From positions 1 through 64,000 of the forward strand of contig JAGFNK010000239.1 of the NCBI GenBank assembly GCA_025769875.1: a DNA stretch of 64,000 nucleotides, given 5' to 3'. Positions within the stretch are counted from its first letter, which is position 1. Every line of letters begins with the position of its first letter. The notes below the pieces were generated by a model, which worked only from the letters and a program-made list of their open reading frames with translations, did not search any database and was not told where the DNA came from. Shown piece by piece: positions 7,020 to 64,000 of the stretch. Origin of the DNA: Russula earlei (taxonomy: Eukaryota; Basidiomycota; Agaricomycetes; Russulales; Russulaceae). Both the position numbers and the translations under genes were made by a program.

Positions 7020-7847
7020 TGTTATGAACCAAGGCCAAGCCCTGGCCGAGGATTGTCCTATTTTACTCAAGAAAGACCTCTCTCACTTTGCATTGCCGAC
7101 TCCCTTCCATTTTCTGGGCTATCCCTCCTGTGGTACAAGATATTGCTATTGCAAAGGCACTATAACACGACCAGGCACCCGTTTCCTAATCGGGTAATCA
7201 TCGCGTGGCAGCCACATGGCCACCCAGCCACGAAGGACCTGAAACAGCGGCACAAACTCTTAGAAACTGTTGCATAAATCATCTGATGTCATCAAGGCTC
7301 CAATGACATCATGGCTGACTGAGCGACTCCACAGTGACCTCATAGGCTCACTAAGCGCCCCACAGTGACATCATAATGATGTCATCGCTCCACAATGATC
7401 AGTAATGCGCTCAGTAAGCCTGAAATTGACACAAGCAAGTTTATGCCTCTGTAGTCCTATTGGATGGTACCAAAGAGTCTAGAATAGTCCCAGTGCTTTG
7501 TAATCGACCCTGTACACTGTATATAAGCCCCAATGAAACATGGCAGTCGTCAGACTGTCCATTTGTGATACTCTCATACTCCTGGGTACTCCCCTGCGAC
7601 CGCTCAGTTTAAAGACTTCCCTCGCCTCCAAGGTACTCTTCAACGACCGCCTTGTCTAAAAGCCCCTCGCTGCACTGGCCTCCAGTCTTTGCCTCTGCCT
7701 CTTGCAACACTTACCAGTCCCCATCTGGTACCTCCTCGTCGTTTGGCTTGTCCTCCTGTTCAACGCCGCCTTCGCCGCGTATCATCTGTTCTGACCCTTG
7801 CCCACCTGCTCCTGAGTCCTTAGTGATCAGCAGTACGTGTCTTGACA
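7020..7847 (+). repeat. solo LTR, family 2 (chromovirus LTR)
   Basis: 828 bp copy starting TGTTATGAACC and ending CTTGACA, the same family as the LTRs of the element at 25555-36067. Flanking five bases are ATTTA and GTTTA, a possible target duplication with one difference. Its R-U5 part matches the 5' LTR subtype at 25555 rather than the 3' LTR subtype. Confidence 0.88.
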
Positions 7848-25554: not shown

Positions 25555-26384
25555 TGTTACGAACCAAGGCCAAGTCCTGGCCAAGGATTGTCCTATTTTA
25601 CTCAAGAAAGACCTCTCTCACTTTGCATTGCCGACTCCCTTCCATTTTCTGGGCTATCCCTCCTGTGGTACAAGATATTGCTATTGCAAAGGCACTCTAA
25701 CACGACCAGGCACCGGTTTCCTAATCGGGTAATCATCGCGTGGCAGCCACATGGCCACCCAGCCACCATGGACCCGAAACAGCGGCACAAACTCTTAGAA
25801 ACTGTTGCATAAATCATCTGACGTCATCAAGGCTCCAATGACATCATGGCTGACTGAGCGACTCCACAGTGACCTCATAGGCTCACTAAGCGCCCCACAG
25901 TGACATCATAATGATGTCATCGCTCCACAATGATCAGTAATGCGCTCAGTAAGCCTGAAACTTGGCATAAGCAAGTTTATGCCTCTGTAGTCCTATTGGA
26001 TGGTACCAAAGAGTCTAGAATAGTCCCAGTGCTTTGTAATCGACCCTGTACACTGTATATAAGCCCCAATGAAGCATGGCAGTCGTCAGACTGTCCATTT
26101 GTGATACTCTCATACTCCTGGGTACTCCCCTGCGACCGCTCAGTTTAAAGACTTCCCTCGCCTCCAAGGTACTCTTCAACGACCGCCTTGTCTAAAGTCC
26201 CCTTCGCTGCACTGGCCTCCAGCCTTCGCCTCTGCCTCTTGCAACACCTACCAGTCCCCATCTGGTACCTCCTCGTCGTTTGGCTCGTCCTCTTGTTCAA
26301 CGCCGCCTTCGCCGCGTATCATCTGTTCCGACCCTTGCCCACCTGCTCCTGAGTCCTTAGTGATCAGCAGTACGTGTCTTGACA
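25555..26384 (+). repeat. 5' LTR of chromovirus, family 2
   Basis: 830 bp from TGTTACGAACC to CTTGACA. U3 nearly equals that of the 3' LTR, but the last 280 bp match the solo copy at 7020-7847 instead. Sequence right after it (tcTGGACAGTCTC) may be the primer-binding site; I cannot name the tRNA. Confidence 0.93.
26056..26063 (+). promoter_or_regulatory. TATA box of the 5' LTR
   Basis: tatataag in a conserved context (gtacactgtatataagcc) found in every family 2 LTR copy. The last ATG upstream of gag lies at 26076-26078, about 20 bp after it, so transcription probably starts downstream of that ATG. Confidence 0.65.
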
Positions 26385-26430
26385 TCTGGACAGTCTCTCA
26401 TCATTCTTGTATTGACCAGCCAACGCTCAA

Positions 26431-27355
26431 GTGTCTACTCCCAACTCCCCCACTCTTGTCAATACCTCCCTGCGTCTCCCTTCTCCTCTCCAGCCCACTC
26501 CACGCACCGCTCTTCGCATCCTCACTGAAGACGTCGACCCGGTCGACACATCCTCACCCCTCAGCCTCTTGTACTCCCCAACGGCTCCCCCATCGTCTCC
26601 TACCACTGTCCAGCCTATCCCAGACAACTTTGTCCCTGTCGGCACTCCCCCTCCAGCGCAGAACGAGCAACAGCAAGCGGACCGTCCTCCCTTACCTGAA
26701 GGCTTCCTCGACCGTCCCCCCTGCACAGTATTTCGCTTCCATCCGCACCAGTACTTCGTCCTCCCTACCACCAATCGTCGCCAGGAGCAGTGGCGTCCCC
26801 TCCACGACTTGAATCATCAAGACTACCTTGGACGCATCCCTACCTCAGACCAGTTAGCTCGTCGCGCATTCACAGACACCTTCACTACCGCCTTTCGTGC
26901 ACGCATCGTCCACACTTTTGCGGTAGAACCCTCCAACACTGCCCTTGCCACCCAGTACAATCTCACCCCCTTCGGCATCTGCTCCAACGTCGGGATATAC
27001 GCCCCGGACGCTGACTTTCCCCTCGGACGCATCGCATACATTTTTAACACCTCGTTATTTAGGAAACTACTTACCTTGCCTGCTATTTACCGCCCTGCTT
27101 ACGAGGGCTCGTTTTGCTTATCTATCGTACACGACTTCTTGGACGGACGTCTCGCTTTCGCATACGGCTACTTACACTTCGAGGAGAACAGTAACCTGCG
27201 TGTCCCTACGTCACTATTCGACTTATACAGTCGACACCATCCGCTTTAACCCCCAGCTACTTCGCTTTTGCTTTACGCCTCGTATTCCCCTTAACCCTCT
27301 CGAAATAATTGAGAGGTACCAGCTCGAAACCATAGATCTTGCGCACGGTTCTTAA
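26431..27355 (+). CDS. leader ORF 1, methionine-free, unknown function
   Basis: Open from the start of the internal region (shown from a GTG at 26431) to 27249, then continuing after a +1 change near 27230 to TAA at 27353-27355. The N-terminal third is Pro/Ser/Thr-rich. The rest looks globular, with aromatic-rich segments (FRFHPHQYFVL, FGICSNVGIYAPD). It contains no methionine, and no ATG occurs in any forward frame here, so any product would need a non-AUG start. I recognise no domain. Two AATAAAG motifs lie just after it (about 27384 and 27396), so a short separate transcript is also possible. Codon-like texture is visible but selection was not tested. Confidence 0.5.
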
Positions 27356-27424
27356 AAAGTAAGAACCACCCTTGTAACGCTTCAATAAAGATCGAATAAA
27401 GATCCTTTTCTTGTTTTAACTAAA

Positions 27425-28294
27425 GTGCCACGAGAATACGCCTTAGAAGAAGTCGAAGAAGAAGACGCTATTACTCGACACATCTTAAACTTAAATCATT
27501 ATCGAACTTGGACCTCCGTCGCATTCCCTGTCACCACTTTAACCAACTTACACGACGTACCAGGAGTTGAACCACCTCACGAAGATTTCCCCCATCTTAT
27601 TGTTAAAGAGTTCCTTGAAGTCTTGCCTTTTGGACAACTCTTAAGCCACGACGAACACGCACTATATCTTGAAACCCTTAGTCGACTTCTACCTCCAGCA
27701 CGACAACAACTATTATATTGGCACCTTGCTCAAGCAAAGAACATCCAAGGACAACCAGTTGACTACCAATCCTTACGCGCCAGTGAATTAAACCTCTGGA
27801 CCAGAGTCATTCAACCACGCCACCACATTATTATCCACTCCTTGAGAACAGGATACCGCTTGTTCTACTTAGGTTGGACATACATCAGCTACTATCGTCT
27901 CACTGTCCAGTTCTACCACCTACGCCTCAACAGAATACAAAGGGAAAACCAATCTTACGTCCAACTTGCGGTTGTACCAGGAATACACAACACCTTCGAT
28001 TGGGAAACTAACTCGTGGTTGTACGACGCAGACTATAATCAACCTTGGGCAATTACCAGCCCAGACGCCTCATATACTGGTCCCCCTGCATACTATTCTG
28101 TCCCAGCAATCCTAGAAGCCTCAAGTCTCGCCCCTCGACCCCTCACACCAATTCAGACCACTGTCCCAACTAGCCAAGAACGTTGGTCTGCCAGCACAGA
28201 AAATACTGAGTCAAATCCGTGGACAGCAAGGTGTAACTGCAAAACAGAGTACTTGCACGTGCAACTTTCGACCAGACACACCTCCTACTCCTGA
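27425..28294 (+). CDS. leader ORF 2, methionine-free, unknown function
   Basis: 289 codons shown from a GTG at 27425; the frame is open back to a TAA near 27386. Acidic start (EEVEEEDAI), then a helical, Tyr/His/Leu-rich body (LLPPARQQLLYWHLAQ, YISYYRLTVQFYHLRL), and a Pro-rich tail. No methionine anywhere. A plausible 66 nt intron (GTAAGA at 27359 to AAAG at 27424) could join it to ORF 1, but a TAA precedes the donor. The frame overlaps an alternative open frame over about 28140-28290 that runs into ORF 3, so the two may be one protein read through a +1 shift. No known domain. Confidence 0.5.
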   Translation: MPREYALEEVEEEDAITRHILNLNHYRTWTSVAFPVTTLTNLHDVPGVEPPHEDFPHLIVKEFLEVLPFGQLLSHDEHALYLETLSRLLPPARQQLLYWHLAQAKNIQGQPVDYQSLRASELNLWTRVIQPRHHIIIHSLRTGYRLFYLGWTYISYYRLTVQFYHLRLNRIQRENQSYVQLAVVPGIHNTFDWETNSWLYDADYNQPWAITSPDASYTGPPAYYSVPAILEASSLAPRPLTPIQTTVPTSQERWSASTENTESNPWTARCNCKTEYLHVQLSTRHTSYS

Positions 28295-28304
28295 CGGAAT
28301 TACC

Positions 28305-28928
28305 TTGTGGACGCCAGGCGATTACCATCCTCCCCATTCGATAAATCTGGCTCCTCGACACAGGAGACGCGCGTCATCCCAACGACCCCCTGAGAGAGAA
28401 ACAGTTCCCAACGCAAGAGGATTTCTTGTTGAAAGACCATTACCTCCTACCCCTCCTGACGCCTACGTACCCTTGTTTACCAATCGTATTCCTACCCCTG
28501 TCATACCTATCCAACCCTTTTCATCACCCCTTGTTGAATCCCCTGATAGTGCCGATCTTAGGAATACTGATTTACACTGTTATCTACCAGAACAATCCTT
28601 CTTAGCATTAAACCTACCTACACGTTCAAGGAGAGAGTTAATTGAATTCAAGAATTATTGTACCCAAGCTTGGCATCAACGACTGACACACTTTATAGTC
28701 TATAAGCACCCCACCAAGGAAATAAGTGACTTTGCCATCTCTCCAGCAGAATTTGAAGGATATCTGTGGAAAACCCGAGTAGTTCTAACACAAAGCAGCA
28801 TTACTGAAGAATACTCCCGAATCCAATTAAGAAAACATCAAGGAAGACCCGATACCATTCGACTAAAGCCAGCCTACACCATTGCATATCCTTGGAACAA
28901 CGGTCATTGGACTATAACAGTCGTCTAG
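28305..28928 (+). CDS. leader ORF 3, methionine-free, conserved in a relic
   Basis: Shown from a TTG at 28305 but open in frame from at least 28140 (CNFRPDTPPTPDG upstream). It ends with TAG at 28926-28928, 4 nt before the gag ATG. Pro/Arg-rich start, then a segment LHCYLPEQSFLALNLP and a basic/aromatic C-terminal half. No methionine. A relic at 37214-37005 on the minus strand encodes nearly the same 69-residue segment, and the DNA differences are mainly at third codon positions. That pattern supports a real protein under selection. Function is unknown; placement before gag suggests a particle or accessory role, but this is inference. Confidence 0.6.
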   Translation: MWTPGDYHPPHSINLAPRHRRRASSQRPPERETVPNARGFLVERPLPPTPPDAYVPLFTNRIPTPVIPIQPFSSPLVESPDSADLRNTDLHCYLPEQSFLALNLPTRSRRELIEFKNYCTQAWHQRLTHFIVYKHPTKEISDFAISPAEFEGYLWKTRVVLTQSSITEEYSRIQLRKHQGRPDTIRLKPAYTIAYPWNNGHWTITVV

Positions 28929-28932
28929 ATCT

Positions 28933-30441
28933 ATGAGCACTAGGAGGGACATCACTGACGAAGAAGAAAATCTAATCCCACTCCTATTTGAAAACCTCAG
29001 TTACGACACCCAAGATCACTGTTATCGAGGAAAATTTGCAGGCACACCTATTATCAACCACGGAAATCTTTCTGACACTTGGTTATACGAAGACGATAAC
29101 GACGAAGTTACCACCGAACAACTTAAAGCGGCAGCCCCAGGAGCAGAAAACGTTCAAGACTTCAACCCCTATAACTACACAGGCCTCTTCCTAGACAGAC
29201 CAGTCAAGTGGAGCCGTTCTAGAAGACATTGGGTTTACTATAACAATCGAGAAGTCGATTTCTCAGCCAGAACACCTCAAGAAGTTACCGCTATCCTAGG
29301 AACTGCTCAGAGCACTCGAAGCACCACTCCAGGACCTTCTACTCGGCGTAATACCCAACAACCTACTCCTCATACAACTAGCAACGTACCACAAGCAGTC
29401 CCTCGAACGCTCACTCCAACTAGAATCCAACTACAAGGTTCAGCCCCACCTATTGTTACAGCTACAACAACTCAGAATCCCACCATGTCAAGCAATCCAC
29501 GCCTTGTCGGAACAGCACCAGAACCCTTTGACGGAAAGGCTGATAATGCAGAAGCCTTTTGGGCAGCTCTGGCCAATTATTACTACATCAATGGCGACTC
29601 CTTTACAGATGAAAGCAAGAAAGTTGCCGCTGCACTAACCCACTTTAAAGTAGGAACACCCGCCGGAGCGTGGGCTAGAGAACAAACCACCAAGGCTATG
29701 GCTCGTACCGTAGCAGACTATGGGTCATGGGACGACTTCAAGAAAGCCTTTGCCGATCACTTTATCCCTGCAGAAGCAGAGTTGGCCTCCGCTAATACCA
29801 TGCACACCTATTATCAAGGAAAACTACCATTTAACGAATGGTATCAGAAATGGTCACACCACGCGTCACGAGCTACCACCGATGAAAGAACAAAGATGTA
29901 CGCATTTAGGAAGAACATTAACCCGGCCTTACATCAGAAAATATTGGGAATCACACCGACACCAACTACGCTTGCAGCCCTTGTCAAAGCAGCAAGAGAA
30001 TTCGACAACCTTTTCCACCTATACAACTCCACTGCTTTTCGAGGAGGACGCTCTGTGCGTGCCCGAGGATTGAACACTCAAGGATCAGACAACCCATTGG
30101 AAATTAACTTGTACCAAGGAGAGCCCAATGAACGACCCTGGGAATCCAGAAGTGAAAGGAAACCCCTCACAGATGCAGAGAAAGAATTTCGACGCAAGAA
30201 CAATCTCTGTTATTATTGTGGAAAGAAGAATCATATGGCAAATCAATGCAGAGCAAAGAAAGCAGCTCAAGGACGCCAACGACAAGGTTCTCGCCCCCAA
30301 ACAGTCAGAGCTACAACCATCCAAGATGAAAACATTGAACCTGCGCAAGAAGAACCCGTTCCTGTTGCTTCACTAACGACTTGGAGAGAGACACTTGCAG
30401 ACTCGATCCTCCGCCCAAGATCTGCTCCTATGGATTTTTAA
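28933..30441 (+). CDS. gag: gag polyprotein of chromovirus
   Basis: 502-residue capsid/nucleocapsid precursor that packages the element RNA. ATG at 28933 is the first ATG of the predicted transcript. Residues 1-120 form an acidic/aromatic N-terminal region (YDTQDHCYRGKF), residues 130-185 a Ser/Thr/Pro linker. A retrotransposon gag domain spans about 195-375 (PFDGKADNAEAFWAAL, WDDFKKAFADHF). A CCHC knuckle (CYYCGKKNHMANQC) is at 426-439. The frame stops with TAA at 30439-30441 after TTT and overlaps pol, which is in the -1 frame. A decayed relative of its N-terminus lies at 36720-36587. Confidence 0.95.
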   Translation: MSTRRDITDEEENLIPLLFENLSYDTQDHCYRGKFAGTPIINHGNLSDTWLYEDDNDEVTTEQLKAAAPGAENVQDFNPYNYTGLFLDRPVKWSRSRRHWVYYNNREVDFSARTPQEVTAILGTAQSTRSTTPGPSTRRNTQQPTPHTTSNVPQAVPRTLTPTRIQLQGSAPPIVTATTTQNPTMSSNPRLVGTAPEPFDGKADNAEAFWAALANYYYINGDSFTDESKKVAAALTHFKVGTPAGAWAREQTTKAMARTVADYGSWDDFKKAFADHFIPAEAELASANTMHTYYQGKLPFNEWYQKWSHHASRATTDERTKMYAFRKNINPALHQKILGITPTPTTLAALVKAAREFDNLFHLYNSTAFRGGRSVRARGLNTQGSDNPLEINLYQGEPNERPWESRSERKPLTDAEKEFRRKNNLCYYCGKKNHMANQCRAKKAAQGRQRQGSRPQTVRATTIQDENIEPAQEEPVPVASLTTWRETLADSILRPRSAPMDF

Positions 30442-33400
30442 TTGGACCCCCTTCTGCACCGAGGAGGGATGCGGTCCAAATCAGTACGATACAAAGAGAA
30501 ATCAATTACCCCAAAGTTTTTACCAAGAATATTCGCTCCCCTTCCATTGCCTTGAAAGTTACCTTAGTAGGGAAGACAAGCGGCAAAGAAATCGGTGCAA
30601 GAGCCCTGCTCGACAGTGGAGCAGAAGGAATGATAATCCATGAACGATTTGCACAAAGACACCACCTGCACCTTCGAACTATGATCAAACCCTTGCCAGC
30701 ACAAAATGTAGACGGAACACAAAATGCCAATGGACTAATACGCTTTAGCACCATCCAAAGACTTCGCATTCAAGCGCACACAGGCGCCACTCATGATGAA
30801 CAAGCAGAATTCCTTGTCACTAACATTGGAGATCACGACATTATCTTAGGAACCGATTGGCTACGACACCACAACCCAGATATTGATTGGGCAAATGATA
30901 CAATCACACTGAGGAACTGCCCCCGAACTTGCCTTACCACACACCCAAGCATAACCATTGCATCTGCATCTGGAACGCGGAATTACCAAATACAAGCACT
31001 TACTTTCCCTGAAGAAGAAGAACCCGAGTTTACGGACATTGCTGCACTAATCTTCCCAGATACTGAAGGACCATTGAACCCATGTGTTGACGAACAAATC
31101 CACGATGCGTTTAGCCCAATAACAATCAACATAAGAGCCAAATCAACCACAGCTACCAAGTTAGCCAGTGCGGAAACACCCCCTAAGACATTAGACGAAC
31201 TTATCCCCGCCCAATTCTTGAAATGGCGAAAGGTTTTCGATGAACAAGCTTCTCAACGCCTTCCTGCTCACCAACCATGGGACCATGCAATCAATCTAAA
31301 ACCAGGGATCGCCCGACGTGATTCTGGCATTTATCGACTTACTCCCAAGGAACTACAAGCCCTAAAAGAATACTTAGACGAACATTTGAAGAGAGGCACA
31401 ATCCGACCATCAAAAGCAGCTATTGCCAGCCCATTCTTCTTTGTAGAAAAGAAAGGAGGAAATCTACGACCAGTGCAAGACTACAGAGCCCTGAATACAG
31501 CAACTGTCAAAGACGCGTATCCACTACCCTTGATTCCTGAATTAATTGACAAACTCCAAGGAGCCCAATACTTTACCAAGTTTGACGTACGATGGGGATA
31601 CAACAATATTCGCCTCAGAGAGGGCGATGAACACCTCGCAGCATTCAAGACACCATTAGGACTCTTCGAACCATTGATAATGACATTTGGTCTCTGCAAC
31701 GCCCCAGCCACTTTCCAACGCTTTATGAACACCATCCTAGCAAAATACATCGCCACTGAACGAGTGGTTGTTTATCTAGATGATATACTAATCATGGCGC
31801 AAACCTTGAACGAACTAGACGACTGGACACATAAGGTCCTAAAAACACTCCAAGACCACGACTTATACTTGAAACCAGAGAAATGTGCTTTCCGACAAAC
31901 CTCTATTAGTTACCTAGGCATCAATATCTCCCAAGGACGAATATCCATGGACCAAGACAAGTTAATAGGCATTACAAAGTGGCCTACTCCGACCAATGTT
32001 ACGGAAGTACAAGCATTTCTAGGATTCTGCAACTTCTATCGACGATTTATCCACCAATACTCTCGAATAGCACGGCCCTTGTTTAACTTAACAAAGAAAG
32101 AAAACCCCTTCAAATGGGAAGACGATGAAGAACAAGCATTTCAGAAGCTAATCCAAGCATTCACAACGGCCCCAATCCTCATGTTACCTAACCACACGAA
32201 ACCCTTTCGACTCATCTGCGATGCAAGTGACTTTGCAGTCGGTGCAATCTTGGAACAACCCGATGAATTTAACAGATATCACCCAGTAGCCTATTTCTCG
32301 AAATCCTTGGACCCCGCACAACGAAATTACATGATCTATGATAAAGAACTCCTTGCTATCGTCTTGTCCCTCTGGCACTTCCGACACTACCTTGAAGGCG
32401 CTACACACCCCATTGATCTATGGACAGACCACAATAACTTGACATACTTCATGACAAAACAGAAACTCACGAGACGACAAGCCCGATGGGCACTCCTCCT
32501 CAGCAATTTCGACTTCACCATCACCCACCACCCAGGAACTATGAACAAAGCAGACGGTCTGTCCAGGCGGCCAGACTTTAAAGAGGGGATACAAAACGAA
32601 AATGATGGAAAGGTGCTCCTAGATGACAAATTTTTTAAAATTAGAGCAACACGCACCTCTGCTACAGAACCAATCGGCGACCAGGAACTTCGACAACAAC
32701 TACGATCTAGCAAAGACTATGACCCAGAAGTATCTAACGCGTTAGCAATCATTATAAAGAATGGACCAAGGCGACTATCCAAAGGCTTACAGGACTGGAA
32801 CCTTGAAGATGGACTAATACTATTCAAAGGAAAAGTCTATATCCCAAACAACGACACCCTAAGAAAGAAAATTCTAAAACTACACCACGACTCCCTTGCC
32901 ACTGGGCATCCTGGCCAATGGAAAACTTATGAACTGATCAGCCGAAACTATTGGTGGCCAGGAATGCTAACTTATGTCAAAAGTTATGTAGACGGTTGCG
33001 CAATTTGCCAAAGTACAAAGAACCGTCCAAAGACAGAAACACCCCTTGTACCGATTACACCAGCTGGAGAAGTATGGAAAAGCATTACTATGGACTTTAT
33101 CACGGACCTACCGATTTCACAAGGCTTCGACAGCCTCCTAGTCGTGGTAGATCGATTCAGTAAAGCGATAATCATTACCCCTTGCCACAAGACAATCACA
33201 GCAGACGAAACAGCGACACTAATCATGAACAATGTCTGGAGAAGAATAGGGCTCCCAACACAAATAATATCGGACAGAGGCCCTCAATTCGCAGCAAAAG
33301 TCACTCAAGAACTATGGAAAAAGTTAAATGTCAAAGTATCACTAAGCACAGCATATCACCCACAGACAGACGGAGAAACAGAACGAGTTAACCAAGAACT

Positions 33401-34157
33401 AGAACAATACCTACGAATATTTTGCAACCATCAAGCAGACAATTGGGCAGAACTAATTCCCTTTATGGAATTCGCACATAATGCCAGACAACACAGTGCT
33501 ACGAACAAACCCCCATTTGAAGTCTGGTATGGCTTTAACCCAACATTTGCTCCGCCCCTTGCCTTTACATCAAAGTTCCCTTCAATCCAAGAAAGACTAT
33601 CAAGACTAAACCAACTCAGAGAAGAAGTAGCTGCCTCCCTGAACCGAGCAACAGAAATCATGAAGCAATCAGGACCTCAAACCTCCACATTTCGTTTTAA
33701 AGAAGGGGATCAAGTATGGCTGGAAGCCACGAATCTACGAACGACTCACCCAAAAGCAAAACTAGCCCCTCGACGCTATGGGCCATTCAAAGTCACCACT
33801 GCCTATCCAGTAAACGTTCGCCTCGAACTACCAAAGTCTTGGAAGATACACCCAGTTTTTCACCACTCCCTGATTAAACCTTACAAAGAAACCATTGCCC
33901 ATGGTCCTAACTTTTCAAACCCGCCACCAATATTAGTCGAAGGTGAAGAACAATATGAAGTAGAGCAGATCCTAAACTCTCGGCTCTCCCCAAACCGCAA
34001 AGGAATCCAATACCTAGTTAAATGGAAAGGGTATACGGTCGCAGAAAATACTTGGGAACCAGCATCTAACCTATCAAAAGCGCAATTACTTGTTAAAGAC
34101 TTCCATCGGAAATATCCGAAGGCGCTTAAGACAATTCCCACCAGGAGTAACCCCTAA
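30381..34157 (+). CDS. pol: pol polyprotein (PR-RT-RNaseH-IN-chromodomain)
   Basis: The frame is open from 30339 and is reached from gag by a -1 shift; numbering here counts from 30381. Aspartic protease active site DSG is at 78-80. RT has FFVEKKGGNLRPVQDYRALN near 352 and YLDD at 465-468. RNase H starts near 613 (CDASDFAVGA). Integrase zinc domain HH..CC is at about 835-880. Its core has Asp 905, Asp 965 and Glu 1001, a DD35E spacing. A C-terminal chromodomain (about 1192-1250; YEVEQILNSR, YLVKWKGY, NTWEPASN) would direct insertion to chromatin marks. No stop or missing catalytic residue is seen, so the enzyme set may be active. Confidence 0.96.
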   Translation: MERDTCRLDPPPKICSYGFLIGPPSAPRRDAVQISTIQREINYPKVFTKNIRSPSIALKVTLVGKTSGKEIGARALLDSGAEGMIIHERFAQRHHLHLRTMIKPLPAQNVDGTQNANGLIRFSTIQRLRIQAHTGATHDEQAEFLVTNIGDHDIILGTDWLRHHNPDIDWANDTITLRNCPRTCLTTHPSITIASASGTRNYQIQALTFPEEEEPEFTDIAALIFPDTEGPLNPCVDEQIHDAFSPITINIRAKSTTATKLASAETPPKTLDELIPAQFLKWRKVFDEQASQRLPAHQPWDHAINLKPGIARRDSGIYRLTPKELQALKEYLDEHLKRGTIRPSKAAIASPFFFVEKKGGNLRPVQDYRALNTATVKDAYPLPLIPELIDKLQGAQYFTKFDVRWGYNNIRLREGDEHLAAFKTPLGLFEPLIMTFGLCNAPATFQRFMNTILAKYIATERVVVYLDDILIMAQTLNELDDWTHKVLKTLQDHDLYLKPEKCAFRQTSISYLGINISQGRISMDQDKLIGITKWPTPTNVTEVQAFLGFCNFYRRFIHQYSRIARPLFNLTKKENPFKWEDDEEQAFQKLIQAFTTAPILMLPNHTKPFRLICDASDFAVGAILEQPDEFNRYHPVAYFSKSLDPAQRNYMIYDKELLAIVLSLWHFRHYLEGATHPIDLWTDHNNLTYFMTKQKLTRRQARWALLLSNFDFTITHHPGTMNKADGLSRRPDFKEGIQNENDGKVLLDDKFFKIRATRTSATEPIGDQELRQQLRSSKDYDPEVSNALAIIIKNGPRRLSKGLQDWNLEDGLILFKGKVYIPNNDTLRKKILKLHHDSLATGHPGQWKTYELISRNYWWPGMLTYVKSYVDGCAICQSTKNRPKTETPLVPITPAGEVWKSITMDFITDLPISQGFDSLLVVVDRFSKAIIITPCHKTITADETATLIMNNVWRRIGLPTQIISDRGPQFAAKVTQELWKKLNVKVSLSTAYHPQTDGETERVNQELEQYLRIFCNHQADNWAELIPFMEFAHNARQHSATNKPPFEVWYGFNPTFAPPLAFTSKFPSIQERLSRLNQLREEVAASLNRATEIMKQSGPQTSTFRFKEGDQVWLEATNLRTTHPKAKLAPRRYGPFKVTTAYPVNVRLELPKSWKIHPVFHHSLIKPYKETIAHGPNFSNPPPILVEGEEQYEVEQILNSRLSPNRKGIQYLVKWKGYTVAENTWEPASNLSKAQLLVKDFHRKYPKALKTIPTRSNP
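30433..30441 (+). promoter_or_regulatory. putative -1 frameshift site at gag stop
   Basis: Gag reads GAT TTT TAA. Slipping one base back gives TTT TTA in the pol frame. Five T residues make re-pairing of the Phe tRNA perfect. The same design is at 3196-3205 on the other strand. Confidence 0.6.
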
Positions 34158-34390
34158 ACCAACAACTCTCATCATGACCTCTGTCGATGATTACCTTTAT
34201 CCTTGTTACCAACATACTTTTCAGAGAACTCCTGCGATCACATGCACTCAATCGACCACAGCTATCCCCAAAGCAATCCATAGGACAAGGGAGAACTCCT
34301 CACGAACCAACAGACTTCGACTCTTCATATGCAAACTACTTCACCTTCCAAAGAAACAAATTCCTACTGTTGCAGGAGCAACAAGTCTAT

Positions 34391-34404
34391 AAAGAGGGGA
34401 TGAA
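34391..34404 (+). other. polypurine tract
   Basis: AAAGAGGGGATGAA immediately before the 3' LTR start, the expected primer for plus-strand synthesis. Confidence 0.75.
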
Positions 34405-36067
34405 TGTTACGAACCAAGGCCAAGTCCTGGCCAAGGATTGTGTCAAGACACGTACTGCTGATCCGTGTGGACTCAGGAGCAGGTGGGCAAGGGTCGGAAC
34501 AGATGGTACGCGGCGTAGGCAGCGTTGAACAAGAGGACGAGCCAAATGACTAAGATGTACCAGATGGGGACTGGTACGTGTAACTGGAGGCAAAGGCGAA
34601 GGTTAGAAGCCAGTGCAACGAAGGGGCTTTAAACAAGGCGGTCGTAGAAGAGTACCTTGGAAGCGAGGGGAGTCTTTAAACTGAGCGGTCGCAGGGGAGT
34701 ACCCAGGAAGATGAGAGTATCACAAATGGACAGTCTGACGACTGCCATGCTTCATTGGGGCTTATATACAGTGTACAGGGTCGATTACAAAGCACTGGGA
34801 CTATTCTAGACTCTTTGGTACCATCCAGTAGGACTACAGAGGCATAAACTTGCTTATGCCAAGTTTCAGGCTTACTGAGCGCATTACTGATCATTGTGGA
34901 GCGATGACATCATTATGATGTCACTGTGGGGCGCTTAGCGAGCCTATGAGGTCACTGTGGAGTCGCTCAGTCAGCCATGATGTCATTGGAGCCTTGATGA
35001 CGTCAGATGATTTATGCAACAGTTTCTAAGAGTTTGTGCCGCTGTTTCGGGTCCATGGTGGCTGGGTGGCCATGTGGCTGCCACGCGATGATTACCCGAT
35101 TAGGAAACCGGTGCCTGGTCGTGTTAGAGTGCTTTTGCAATAGGGATATCTTGTACCACAGGAGGGATAGCCCAGAAAATGGAAGGGAGTCGGCAATGCA
35201 AAGTGAGAGAGGTCTTTCTTGAGTAAAATAGGACAATCCTTGGCCAGGACTTGGCCTTGGTTCGTAACAGATTGTCCTATTTTACTCAAGAAAGACCTCT
35301 CTCACTTTGCATTGCCGACTCCCTTCTATTTTCTGGGCTATCCCTCCTGTGGTACAAGATATTCCTATTGCAAAAGCACTCTAACACGACCAGGCACCGG
35401 TTTCCTAATCGGGTAATCATCGCGTGGCAGCCACATGGCCACCCAGCCACCATGGACCCGAAACAGCGGCACAAACTCTTAGAAACTGTTGCATAAATCA
35501 TCTGACGTCATCAAGGCTCCAATGACATCATGGCTGACTGAGCGACTCCACAGTGACCTCATAGGCTCGCTAAGCGCCCCACAGTGACATCATAATGATG
35601 TCATCGCTCCACAATGATCAGTAATGCGCTCAGTAAGCCTGAAACTTGGCATAAGCAAGTTTATGCCTCTGTAGTCCTATTGGATGGTACCAAAGAGTCT
35701 AGAATAGTCCCAGTGCTTTGTAATCGACCCTGTACACTGTATATAAGCCCCAATGAAGCATGGCAGTCGTCAGACTGTCCATTTGTGATACTCTCATCTT
35801 CCTGGGTACTCCCCTGCGACCGCTCAGTTTAAAGACTCCCCTCGCTTCCAAGGTACTCTTCTACGACCGCCTTGTTTAAAGCCCCTTCGTTGCACTGGCT
35901 TCTAACCTTCGCCTTTGCCTCCAGTTACACGTACCAGTCCCCATCTGGTACATCTTAGTCATTTGACTCGTCCTCTTGTTCAACGCTGCCTACGCCGCGT
36001 ACCATCTGTTCCGACCCTTGCCCACCTGCTCCTGAGTCCACACGGATCAGCAGTACGTGTCTTGACA
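34405..36067 (+). repeat. 3' LTR of chromovirus, split by a reversed LTR
   Basis: First 36 bp at 34405-34440, remainder 35275-36067 (829 bp in total). Its R-U5 end (ccacacggatcagcag) matches the nested copy rather than the 5' LTR. Confidence 0.93.
34441..35269 (-). repeat. solo LTR, family 2, GATTG duplication
   Basis: 829 bp reversed copy inserted 36 bp into the 3' LTR. GATTG flanks both sides (34436-34440, 35270-35274). Together with the host LTR it forms a near-perfect inverted repeat of about 800 bp centred on 35270. Confidence 0.96.
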
Positions 36068-36091
36068 GCTTAGACATTAACAAGGGGGTGA

Positions 36092-36586: not shown

Positions 36587-37224
36587 ATGATTGTCTTCAT
36601 ATAACCAGGGTTCTGCAAGATTTCTGTGATTGATGATAGATGCTCTGTCAAACTTTCCTCAGTAACAATGATCTTGGGTGTCATAGTTTAGGCTTTTGAA
36701 TACTAGTGGAACTTGATCTTCTTCTTGTTCAGTAAGATTTCTTCTAGTACTCATAGGCTTAGACAATGGTTATAGTCCAATGGCCATTGTTCCAGGGATA
36801 TGCTATAATGTAGGCTGGTCTCAGTCAAATAGTATCTGGTCTTCCTTGATGTTTTCTTAAATGGATTCAGGAGTATTCTTTGGTGATACTGCTTTGCACT
36901 AGAACTACTCAGGTTTTCCACTGATATCCTTCAAATTCTGCTGGAGAGATGGCAAAGTCATTTATTTCTTTGATGGGGTGTTGATAAACAACAAAGTGCA
37001 TAAGTCATTGATGCCAAGCCTGGGTACAGTAACTTCTGAATCCAAGTAGTTCTCTTTTTGAACACATAGGTAAATTTAGAGCTAAGAAAGATTGTTCTGG
37101 TAAGTAGCAATGTAAATCAGTATTCATAATATCAATACTATCAGGGGACTCAACAAGAGGTGATGCAAAGGGTTGGGGAGGTATGACAGGTGTAGGAATG
37201 CAATTGGTAAACAAAGGTATGTAG
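36587..37224 (-). pseudogene. relic related to the chromovirus: leader ORF 3 and gag start
   Basis: Minus strand. 37214-37005 encodes a segment matching leader ORF 3 (LHCYLPEQSFLALNLP). Further down, a gag start at about 36743 reads MSTRRNLTEQEEDQ and YDTQDHCY-GKF, where a TGA stands at the arginine codon of the intact gag. The spacing and order match 28440-29100, so leader ORF 3 belongs to the family and is not a chance passenger. Leader ORFs 1 and 2 are absent: the LTR relic joins directly at 37225. Truncated at 36586 by a family 5 LTR. Confidence 0.8.
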
Positions 37225-37507
37225 TGTCAGGACTCACTGTTGAACAATCCAGTTCAAGAGCTAGTTAAGAGTTTGGAGATGAGTTGACTAAGTTCTAGGA
37301 CAAAGTTGGCAAATAGCATGGTCCAAACAAGTAACAAGTACCAGAGGTGAACTGGTACTGGTTGTGAGAGATGATCACAGAAGGAGAGAGCCAGAGTGTA
37401 CTAGATAAGGCAGTCCTAAAGGAGCACCTTTGGTAGTGGAGTGCCACAAATCAAATGGACAGTCTGAAGACTGTCCACTACTTTATTGAGCACTTATATA
37501 TAGTGCT
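37225..37507 (-). repeat. LTR relic of the chromovirus relative
   Basis: Ends GAGTCCTGACA on the minus strand at 37225, with a TATA-like tatatataag near 37495. The same LTR type forms the palindrome at 42563-43290. U3 beyond 37507 is lost or diverged. Confidence 0.6.
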
Positions 37508-62300: not shown

Positions 62301-64000
62301 CGACATACCAAAGGCTTCCGTCACAGGCTACGAAGGGCAGGCACAGATGGCATAACATCAGCTGCACTGCACATCGCGCTTTTGTACCGCACGGAAGGAG
62401 AATCCGTCGACCTGGCGCACCAACCTCTGATCCGACACCAGCTACGCTCTGCGACGTGCCAAAGGCTTCCGTCGCAGGCCAATGGGCAGTAAGGGTGGTC
62501 CCTCAACAGCGTCCCACGCATATGTGTCACAGAGATGGCTGCCGAGAGAAAGGGAATGGTCCTCTTGATCTTGAGGCATCGAGAGAGTCGGCATGGCATC
62601 GCCTTCACGAGGCTCCCAGGGAGATGGTGGGCATTCCATCTAATTACGACCGATTACAGAGCTTATCCATCTCCTAGGTCTACTGGGTCTTTCGCGAAAA
62701 TGATACCAAGGGGGTTCGGCACCGGCTACGCTCTGCGACATGCCAAAGGCTTCCGTCGCAGGCTACGAAGGGCAGGCACAGATGGCATAACATCAGCTGC
62801 ACTGCAAATCGCGCTTTTGTACCGCACGGAAGGAGAATCCGTCGACCTGGCGCACCAACCTCTGATCGGACACCAGCTACGCTCTGCGACGTGCCTAAAG
62901 GCTTCCGTCGCAGGCCAATGGGCAGTGAGGGTGGTCCCTCAACAGCGTCCCACGCATATGTGTCACAGAGATGGCCGCCGAGAGAAAGGGAATGGTCCTC
63001 TTGATCTTGAGGTCGAAAGAGTCAGCATGGCATCGCCTTCACGAGGCTCCCAGAGAGATGGAATACCACCACCTAATTACGACCGATTACGGAGCTTATC
63101 CATCTCCCAGGTCTACAGAGTCTTTCGCGAAAATGATACCAAGGGGGTTCGGCACCAGCTACGCTCTGCGACGTGCCAAAGGCTTCCGTCGCAGGCCAAT
63201 GGGCAGTGAGGTGGTCCCTCAACAGCGTCCCACGCATATGTGTCACAGAGATGGCCGCCGAGAGAAAGGGAATGGTCCTCTTGATCTTGAGGCATCGAGA
63301 GAGTCGGCATGGCATCGCCTTCACGAGGCTCCCAGGGAGATGGTGGGCATTCCATCTAATTACGACCGATTACAGAGCTTATCCATCTCCTAGGTCTACT
63401 GGGTCTTTCGCGAAAACGATACCAAGGGGGTTCGGCACCGGCTACGCTCTGCGACATACCAAAGGCTTCCGTCACAGGCTACGAAGGGCAGGCACAGATG
63501 GCATAACATCAGCTGCACTGCACATCGCGCTTTTGTACCGCACGGAAGGAGAATCCGTCGACCTGGCGCACCAACCTCTGATCCGACACCAGCTACGCTC
63601 TGCGACGTGCCAAAGGCTTCCGTCGCAGGCCAATGGGCAGTAAGGGTGGTCCCTCAACAGCGTCCCACGCATATGTGTCACAGAGATGGCCGCCGAGAGA
63701 AAGGGAATGGTCCTCTTGATCTTGAGGCATCGAGAGAGTCGGCATGGCATCGCCTTCACGAGGCTCCCAGGGAGATGGTGGGCATTCCATCTAATTACGA
63801 CCGATTACAGAGCTTATCCATCTCCTAGGTCTACTGGGTCTTTCGCGAAAACGATACCAAGGGGGTTCGGCACCGGCTACGCTCTGCGACATGCCAAAGG
63901 CTTCTGTCGCAGGCTACGAAGGGCAGGCACAGATGGCATAACATCAGCTGCACTGCACATCGCGCTTTTGTACCGCACGGAAGGAGAATCCGTCGACCTG
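59352..64000. repeat. tandem array, 284 and 151 bp modules, 2019 bp higher-order unit
   Basis: Module P (about 280-284 bp) starts at accagctacgctctgcg; module Q (about 151 bp) starts at accggctacgctctgcg and contains ggcataacatcagctgc. Starts are at about 59421, 59701, 59983, 60267 (Q), 60418, 60702 (Q), 60853, 61135, 61418 (Q), 61568, 61851 (Q), 62003, 62287 (Q), 62437, 62721 (Q), 62872, 63154, 63437 (Q), 63587, 63871 (Q). Segments from 60516 repeat at +2019 almost exactly. Open frames on both strands are a by-product of the repeat. The array leaves the window on the right. Confidence 0.95.

Follow-up and report, generated by a model that had tools for sequence, protein, structure and literature searches.

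AUG-free leader genes and predicted start-codon-assembling introns ahead of gag in a chromovirus of Russula earlei

It has long been asked how a single retroelement RNA manages to be genome, gag–pol message and message for accessory genes at once. The closest described arrangement is that of rice tungro bacilliform virus (RTBV), in which, according to excerpts of PMC5902531, ribosomes scan about 900 nt across long AUG-free open reading frames (ORFs) to a downstream ORF, translation of the first ORF begins at AUU, and P4 is made from a spliced RNA that fuses a leader upstream ORF to ORF IV. For elements with long terminal repeats (LTRs), excerpts of PMC3735527 describe distinct spliced and unspliced RNA pools of the copia-type barley element BARE1, where splicing favours Gag, and excerpts of PMC1142308 describe a 550-codon ORF of unknown function between LTR and gag in the plant Ty3/gypsy element Ogre and an 873-bp LTR–gag gap with no extended ORF in Diaspora. 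By the excerpted account of the latter paper, the Diaspora gap was in 2005 far longer than that of all but one characterised retroelement, and no intron upstream of gag had then been reported for any LTR retroelement (PMC1142308). Here we analyse a 64,000-nt stretch of Russula earlei DNA (contig JAGFNK010000239.1, positions 1–64,000; hereafter the window, contig C239 of the 66.6 Mb of genome searched), which carries on its plus strand a Ty3/gypsy chromovirus (25555–36070, recognized by its LTRs and its gag and pol domains). The same genome gives 82 matches to DUF6535, a family typical of mushroom-forming basidiomycetes, whereas none of 14 control genomes gives any. Its leader holds three coding frames and no ATG, and two predicted introns would assemble start codons for two of them.

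RTBV and badnaviruses (Caulimoviridae) resemble this locus in their AUG-free ORFs ahead of the main ORF and combine these with splicing, as far as the excerpts of PMC5902531 go, but here the splice junction itself is predicted to make the AUG, twice. The present AUG-free stretch, three times the length of theirs, also belongs to an LTR element that integrates. BARE1, in its excerpted description, is similar in its spliced and unspliced pools and differs in that splicing here would switch on accessory genes before gag. Ogre and Diaspora, as excerpted, share the unusually long LTR–gag gap, which here contains three ORFs and two predicted introns. Tf1/sushi-type elements share a chromodomain integrase and an RNA 5′ end complementary to a site beside the 5′ LTR, whereas the present element adds a block of leader genes, with split AUGs predicted for two of them. 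Tf1 itself has a single ORF. Caulimoviridae, to our knowledge, are non-integrating and lack both LTRs and integrase, whereas the window element has LTRs and an integrase domain. In BARE and other copia elements integrase precedes reverse transcriptase (RT), whereas RT precedes rve in the window pol. None of the open-access titles and abstracts listed in our searches describes, for an LTR retrotransposon, a coding leader free of AUGs or a start codon assembled by splicing.

The plus strand contains no ATG between 26079 and 28932 (2,854 nt), where a first-order Markov model gave 22.8 ± 4.6 with a minimum of 9 in 2,000 samples; an earlier note on this DNA had recognized the absence and put the expectation at 25–30. 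The gap between the ATGs at 26076 and 28933 measures 2,857 nt, and the second longest in the window 552 nt. Depletion is confined to one strand and matches the predicted leader of the transcript in position: CAT, the mirror of ATG, occurs 48 times in the same stretch, 12 ATGs lie in the 533 nt upstream of 26088, and 3,713 nt of pol hold 62 ATG and 61 CAT. The predicted RNA 5′ end and self-primer, AGACTGTCCA (26088–26097), lies behind a TATA-like box, TATATAAG (26056–26063), and is the exact 10-base complement of the primer-binding site (PBS), TGGACAGTCT (26387–26396), directly behind the 830-bp 5′ LTR (25555–26384, delimited by repeat comparison). This complementarity, which involves the same 10-base pair in the window family and in a second family, L077, suggests a Tf1-type self-priming arrangement and a probable RNA start near 26088. 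An RNA beginning at this predicted 5′ end would exclude the upstream ATGs at 26069 and 26076, and its whole leader would be AUG-free.

Three long frames without any Met occupy the leader, as had been claimed from the sequence, measuring 277 aa (26416–27249, ORF A), 301 aa (27389–28294, ORF B1) and 270 aa (28116–28928, ORF B2) from stop to stop. All three are open in copy L013 (312, 317 and 210 aa, respectively, stop to stop), and 317 aa is a common open length of B1 among copies. Small indels relative to other copies mean that the leader genes of the window copy are not intact, so that the description of this chromovirus as intact does not hold for its leader.

ORFs A, B1 and B2 are genes under purifying selection. 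In pairwise comparisons of the window copy with diverged copies, the ratio of non-synonymous to synonymous substitution (dN/dS) was 0.126–0.245 for A (5 copies), 0.067–0.154 for B1 and 0.122–0.251 for B2 (8 copies each), against 0.155–0.273 for the start of gag (8 copies) and 0.58–2.25 for the same leader stretches read in their other two frames. The view that the leader is protein-coding and AUG-free beyond chance is upheld. With dN/dS far below 1 in three frames, the values near 1 in all three that the earlier note had said would refute its proposal were not obtained. A plain untranslated leader, poor in ATG through chance or composition, does occur in other elements such as Diaspora (PMC1142308, in excerpt), but we give it virtually no credence here, since it is contradicted by dN/dS in three frames, by the absence of ATG where the Markov model expects many, by the Met-poor homologues of B1 and by the repetition of the desert in L077. 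Synonymous shuffling showed out-of-frame ATGs to be depleted in B1 (0 of 2,000 shuffles) and in B2 (P 0.0015). Codon usage of B1 correlates with that of gag (0.69) and pol (0.67), and that of A is uncorrelated with either (0.10 and 0.08).

A protein search with B1 retrieved P0002 (29% identity), and alignment A1 then gave 26 outside proteins, which together contain 5 internal Met in 7,593 residues, 22 of the 26 having none at all. In twelve B1 representatives that share less than 50% identity, two from this genome included, there is 1 internal Met in 3,728 residues. All seven jgi-sourced homologues start with V, as expected where a gene caller meets AG/TG, and three ena/ncbi entries start MCD where their relatives have an internal LCD, which suggests that the M at position 1 of these entries can be a converted alternative start. 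The structure model of B1 is partly confident (predicted local distance difference test score at least 90 for 148 of 304 residues), and structure comparison found no credible structural relative of it. Near its C-terminus B1 carries a Cys-rich CxC...CxC stretch followed by a strongly conserved RPDTPPTP...LW.PG tail. Gene callers that rely on AUG would overlook the protein families of A, B1 and B2, of which B1 has 26 outside relatives, and Met-free frames can be real genes, their start codons apparently not spelled out in the DNA itself.

How such frames might acquire start codons is suggested by two conserved GTGs, at 26431 (35 of 35 covered alignment rows) and 27425 (45 of 47 rows, the remaining two being copies that lack intron 2, described below). 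Both are preceded by A and can therefore be read as AG/TG splice acceptors, with plausible A/GT donors upstream, at a distance of 53–67 nt in both families. Predicted intron 1 (26370–26431, 62 nt, CAGCA/GTACGT ... CAAG/TGTC) spans the LTR end and the PBS; its A/GT is kept in 37 of 37 covered rows and its AG/TG in 35 of 35. Predicted intron 2 (27359–27425, 67 nt, AAAAA/GTAAGA ... TAAAG/TGCC) separates A from B1. In each case the upstream exon ends in A and AG precedes TG downstream, and excision would create an AUG with a purine at −3: removal of intron 1 would join A26369 to TG26432 and open ORF A (26432–27249, 272 aa in the window copy), and removal of intron 2 would join A27358 to TG27426 and open ORF B1 (27426–28294, 289 aa). 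Behind the same junction AUGs, A and B1 measure 307 and 305 aa in L013. The junction contexts are AGC-AUG-U and AAA-AUG-C in the window and AAC-AUG-U and GAA-AUG-C in L077, with the −3 purine in all four.

A scan for introns of 45–130 nt with GTRNG donors and HAG acceptors found, at any ORF length, two junction AUGs in all in L013, and these open A and B1. L077 yielded the equivalent two and one more that opens a 50-aa frame; the window copy, at a cut-off of 80 aa, yielded those of A and B1 only. Within gag–pol the scan found no junction AUG opening at least 250 aa, and Markov leader samples contained a mean of 0.49 junction AUGs, none of 300 samples opening 250 codons. A hairpin, GGTTCTTA/TAAGAACC (27347–27367), surrounds the intron-2 donor in both families, one outer pair being G-C in the window and A-U in L077; in the window the segment is modestly stable (z −1.95), and if the hairpin slowed splicing it would perhaps keep the RNA unspliced. 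Inside intron 2, at 27384–27401, stand two AATAAA words, which are present in most of the diverged window-family copies examined for them and not in L077.

Genomic copies without intron 2 exist. Copy L011 lacks exactly 27359–27425 and reads TTCTTAAAAATGCC, and L071 likewise lacks the intron and is one A shorter. With the L011 junction as query, at least four sites aligned straight across it (C95, which is L011; C839; C465; and C1152, which is L071) at 89–100% identity, a lower bound since 40 of 331 candidates were scored, and a 16-base junction pattern was found in C95, in C465 and, with one mismatch, in C337. The nearest relatives of both copies carry the intron (L011 is 99.66% identical to the window copy, L071 97.44% identical to L017), and in a tree read without its branch support L011 and L071 fall on separate branches. 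Reverse transcription of spliced RNA would be the simplest cause. Ordinary deletion, by which splicing would not be demonstrated, has a parallel in other leader deletions, such as the roughly 140 bp missing elsewhere in L014, but it appears very improbable given the identical GT...AG boundaries at the four aligned sites, the separate branches of L011 and L071, and a junction that recreates the ATG with which a conserved ORF begins.

The second family repeats the arrangement. L077 (C521), from the same genome, is 41% identical to the window family in A, 35% in B1 and 48% in B2, and has three Met-free frames in the same order, B2 again lying in the −1 frame of B1. Its 3,001 nt contain 1 ATG, located upstream of its TATA box; from the primer (position 74) to the end of the piece there is none in 2,928 nt, against 21.7 expected.

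We consider it likely that the leader packs accessory genes into a compact block before gag in a self-priming chromovirus, with two introns acting as start-codon switches. Unspliced RNA has no AUG before gag, so scanning ribosomes would reach gag on an RNA that doubles as genome. With intron 1 removed, ORF A would be the first AUG frame, and because the PBS is lost with this intron, that RNA could then act as mRNA and nothing else; if instead intron 2 is excised while intron 1 stays, the first AUG frame would be ORF B1. If true, this would be an unusually clean answer to the question of RNA use, two AUG-completing introns in an RNA otherwise stripped of AUGs. More broadly, there is a reasonable case, held with less assurance, that an old fungal LTR lineage keeps about 3 kb of its genomic RNA purged of AUGs for gag–pol, and makes accessory AUGs by excising either of two tiny introns, one of them taking the PBS with it, and a third protein through CUG or a frameshift, in a retrovirus-like programme.

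The earlier note had proposed instead that one or more leader proteins are made from non-AUG starts while scanning ribosomes reach the gag AUG. Applied to all three frames, this would place starts at GUG 26431, GUG 27425 and CUG 28347 on unspliced RNA, the other ribosomes scanning to gag as in RTBV. All three codons are conserved in frame (35 of 35, 45 of 47 and 53 of 54 rows), and AUG-free ORFs crossed by leaky scanning are described for RTBV in excerpts of PMC5902531. However, both GUGs coincide with AG/TG acceptors that have matching A/GT donors in both families, copies without intron 2 exist, and the leader shows no depletion of well-placed near-cognate codons (those in good context), so that nothing singles out these GUGs as starts. 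As a whole we regard this model as unlikely: non-AUG initiation is probably wrong for A and B1, given the acceptors and the intron-2-less copies, but it is possible for B2.

For B2 (28347–28928, within the window frame open from 28116) the candidate start is CTG 28347 (context AATCTGG), which stands in 53 of 54 covered rows, with A at −3, G at +4 and an equivalent in L077; homology of B2 between the families begins at this CTG. Since CTGs in such context are not rare in the leader (3 in the window, 8 in L077), CTG 28347 is a candidate only. B2 is probably reached either at this CUG or by frameshifting from B1. A B1–B2 fusion made by −1 ribosomal frameshifting, leaving the CUG unused, is conceivable though on balance doubtful: in both families B2 and the end of B1 overlap, B2 being in the −1 frame, as do pol and gag, but no canonical slippery heptamer was seen by eye in the B1/B2 overlap, and B2 homology between the families sets in at the CTG just described. 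The B2 stop lies 4 nt upstream of the gag ATG in the window copy. This first gag AUG (28933) has a weak context (TCTATGA), and an in-frame AUG at 29485, 552 nt or 184 codons downstream with no ATG between, has a strong one (ACCATGT, near-ideal CCACCATG); both may be used, giving a longer and a shorter Gag.

Other copies of the family do contain leader ATGs, which the earlier note had named, for intact copies, as grounds for rejecting its proposal. Among 32 near-complete leaders, 11 (the window copy counted) have none and 21 have 1–14. Eleven of the ATG-bearing copies were examined one at a time; a single CpG-decay step separates 175 of their 225 ATGs from the letters of the window, and most of the ATGs look like later CpG decay. 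As a separate observation, old leader copies (L067, L062, L029 and others) decay chiefly at CpG, through C-to-T and G-to-A changes of the kind expected from DNA methylation or from a process like repeat-induced point mutation.

Several results weigh against the scheme of an AUG-purged leader with two start-codon introns. Some copies have ATGs despite little CpG loss in gag (7 in L028, 7 in L024, 5 in L009), and the rank correlation of leader ATG number with gag CpG loss is moderate (0.48). The codon-shuffling check proposed in the earlier note, which succeeded for B1 and B2, failed to reach significance for A alone (P 0.07). CAG or TAG is commoner than AAG at splice acceptors, and the acceptors of the window family end in AAG. 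Copies without intron 1 were not found (0 junction matches, allowing up to one mismatch), as is expected if intron 1 holds the PBS and equally expected without splicing. In the intron-2-less copies, B1 read from the junction ATG stays open for only 112 (L011) and 195 (L071) codons, and the corresponding junction search in the second family was swamped by an unrelated repeat. The L077 piece stops before any gag ATG, so that the end of its desert lies beyond it. The donor-2 hairpin of L077 does not differ significantly from shuffles (z −0.67), and folding near donor 1 shows no extra stability (z 0.80). Finally, no intron tried in the splice scans gives B2 an AUG.

Downstream of the leader, gag occupies 28933–30441 and pol is an open frame (30339–34157) that overlaps gag in the −1 frame and encodes protease, RT, RNase H, integrase and chromodomain. 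The pol domains all exceed their cut-offs (RVT_1 369–530, RNase H 593–724, rve 916–1008, Chromo 1206–1258), RT and RNase H standing ahead of integrase and the chromodomain at the C-terminus, as in chromoviruses. The capsid domain of gag scores 24.5 bits against a cut-off of 24.1 (Retrotrans_gag), and two zinc-knuckle models fall slightly below theirs (20.6 versus 20.8; 23.1 versus 27). The 5′ LTR and the plus-strand 3′ LTR differ by about 4%. Behind pol, two LTRs stand head to head, one inverted (34441–35269) and one forward (35270–36070, without its first 31 bp and 95.8% identical to the 5′ LTR), forming a 1.6-kb palindrome (34441–36070) that could be a nested insertion, a rearrangement or an assembly artefact.

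Elsewhere in the window, another LTR of the family, which shares 97% identity with the 5′ LTR, lies at 7020–7847, no internal region having been noticed around it, and a fragment at 36590–37232 on the minus strand is 81% identical to the B2–gag junction and derives from a related element. The sequence TAGTTCTTGAAATGTC occurs at 149 places in genome G000, often in inverted pairs with a spacing of about 3.5 kb, and may mark the termini of a DNA transposon that has no relation to the chromovirus. From 59357 to the window end at 64000, the DNA consists of tandem repeats with overlapping units, whose copies are 90–99% alike.

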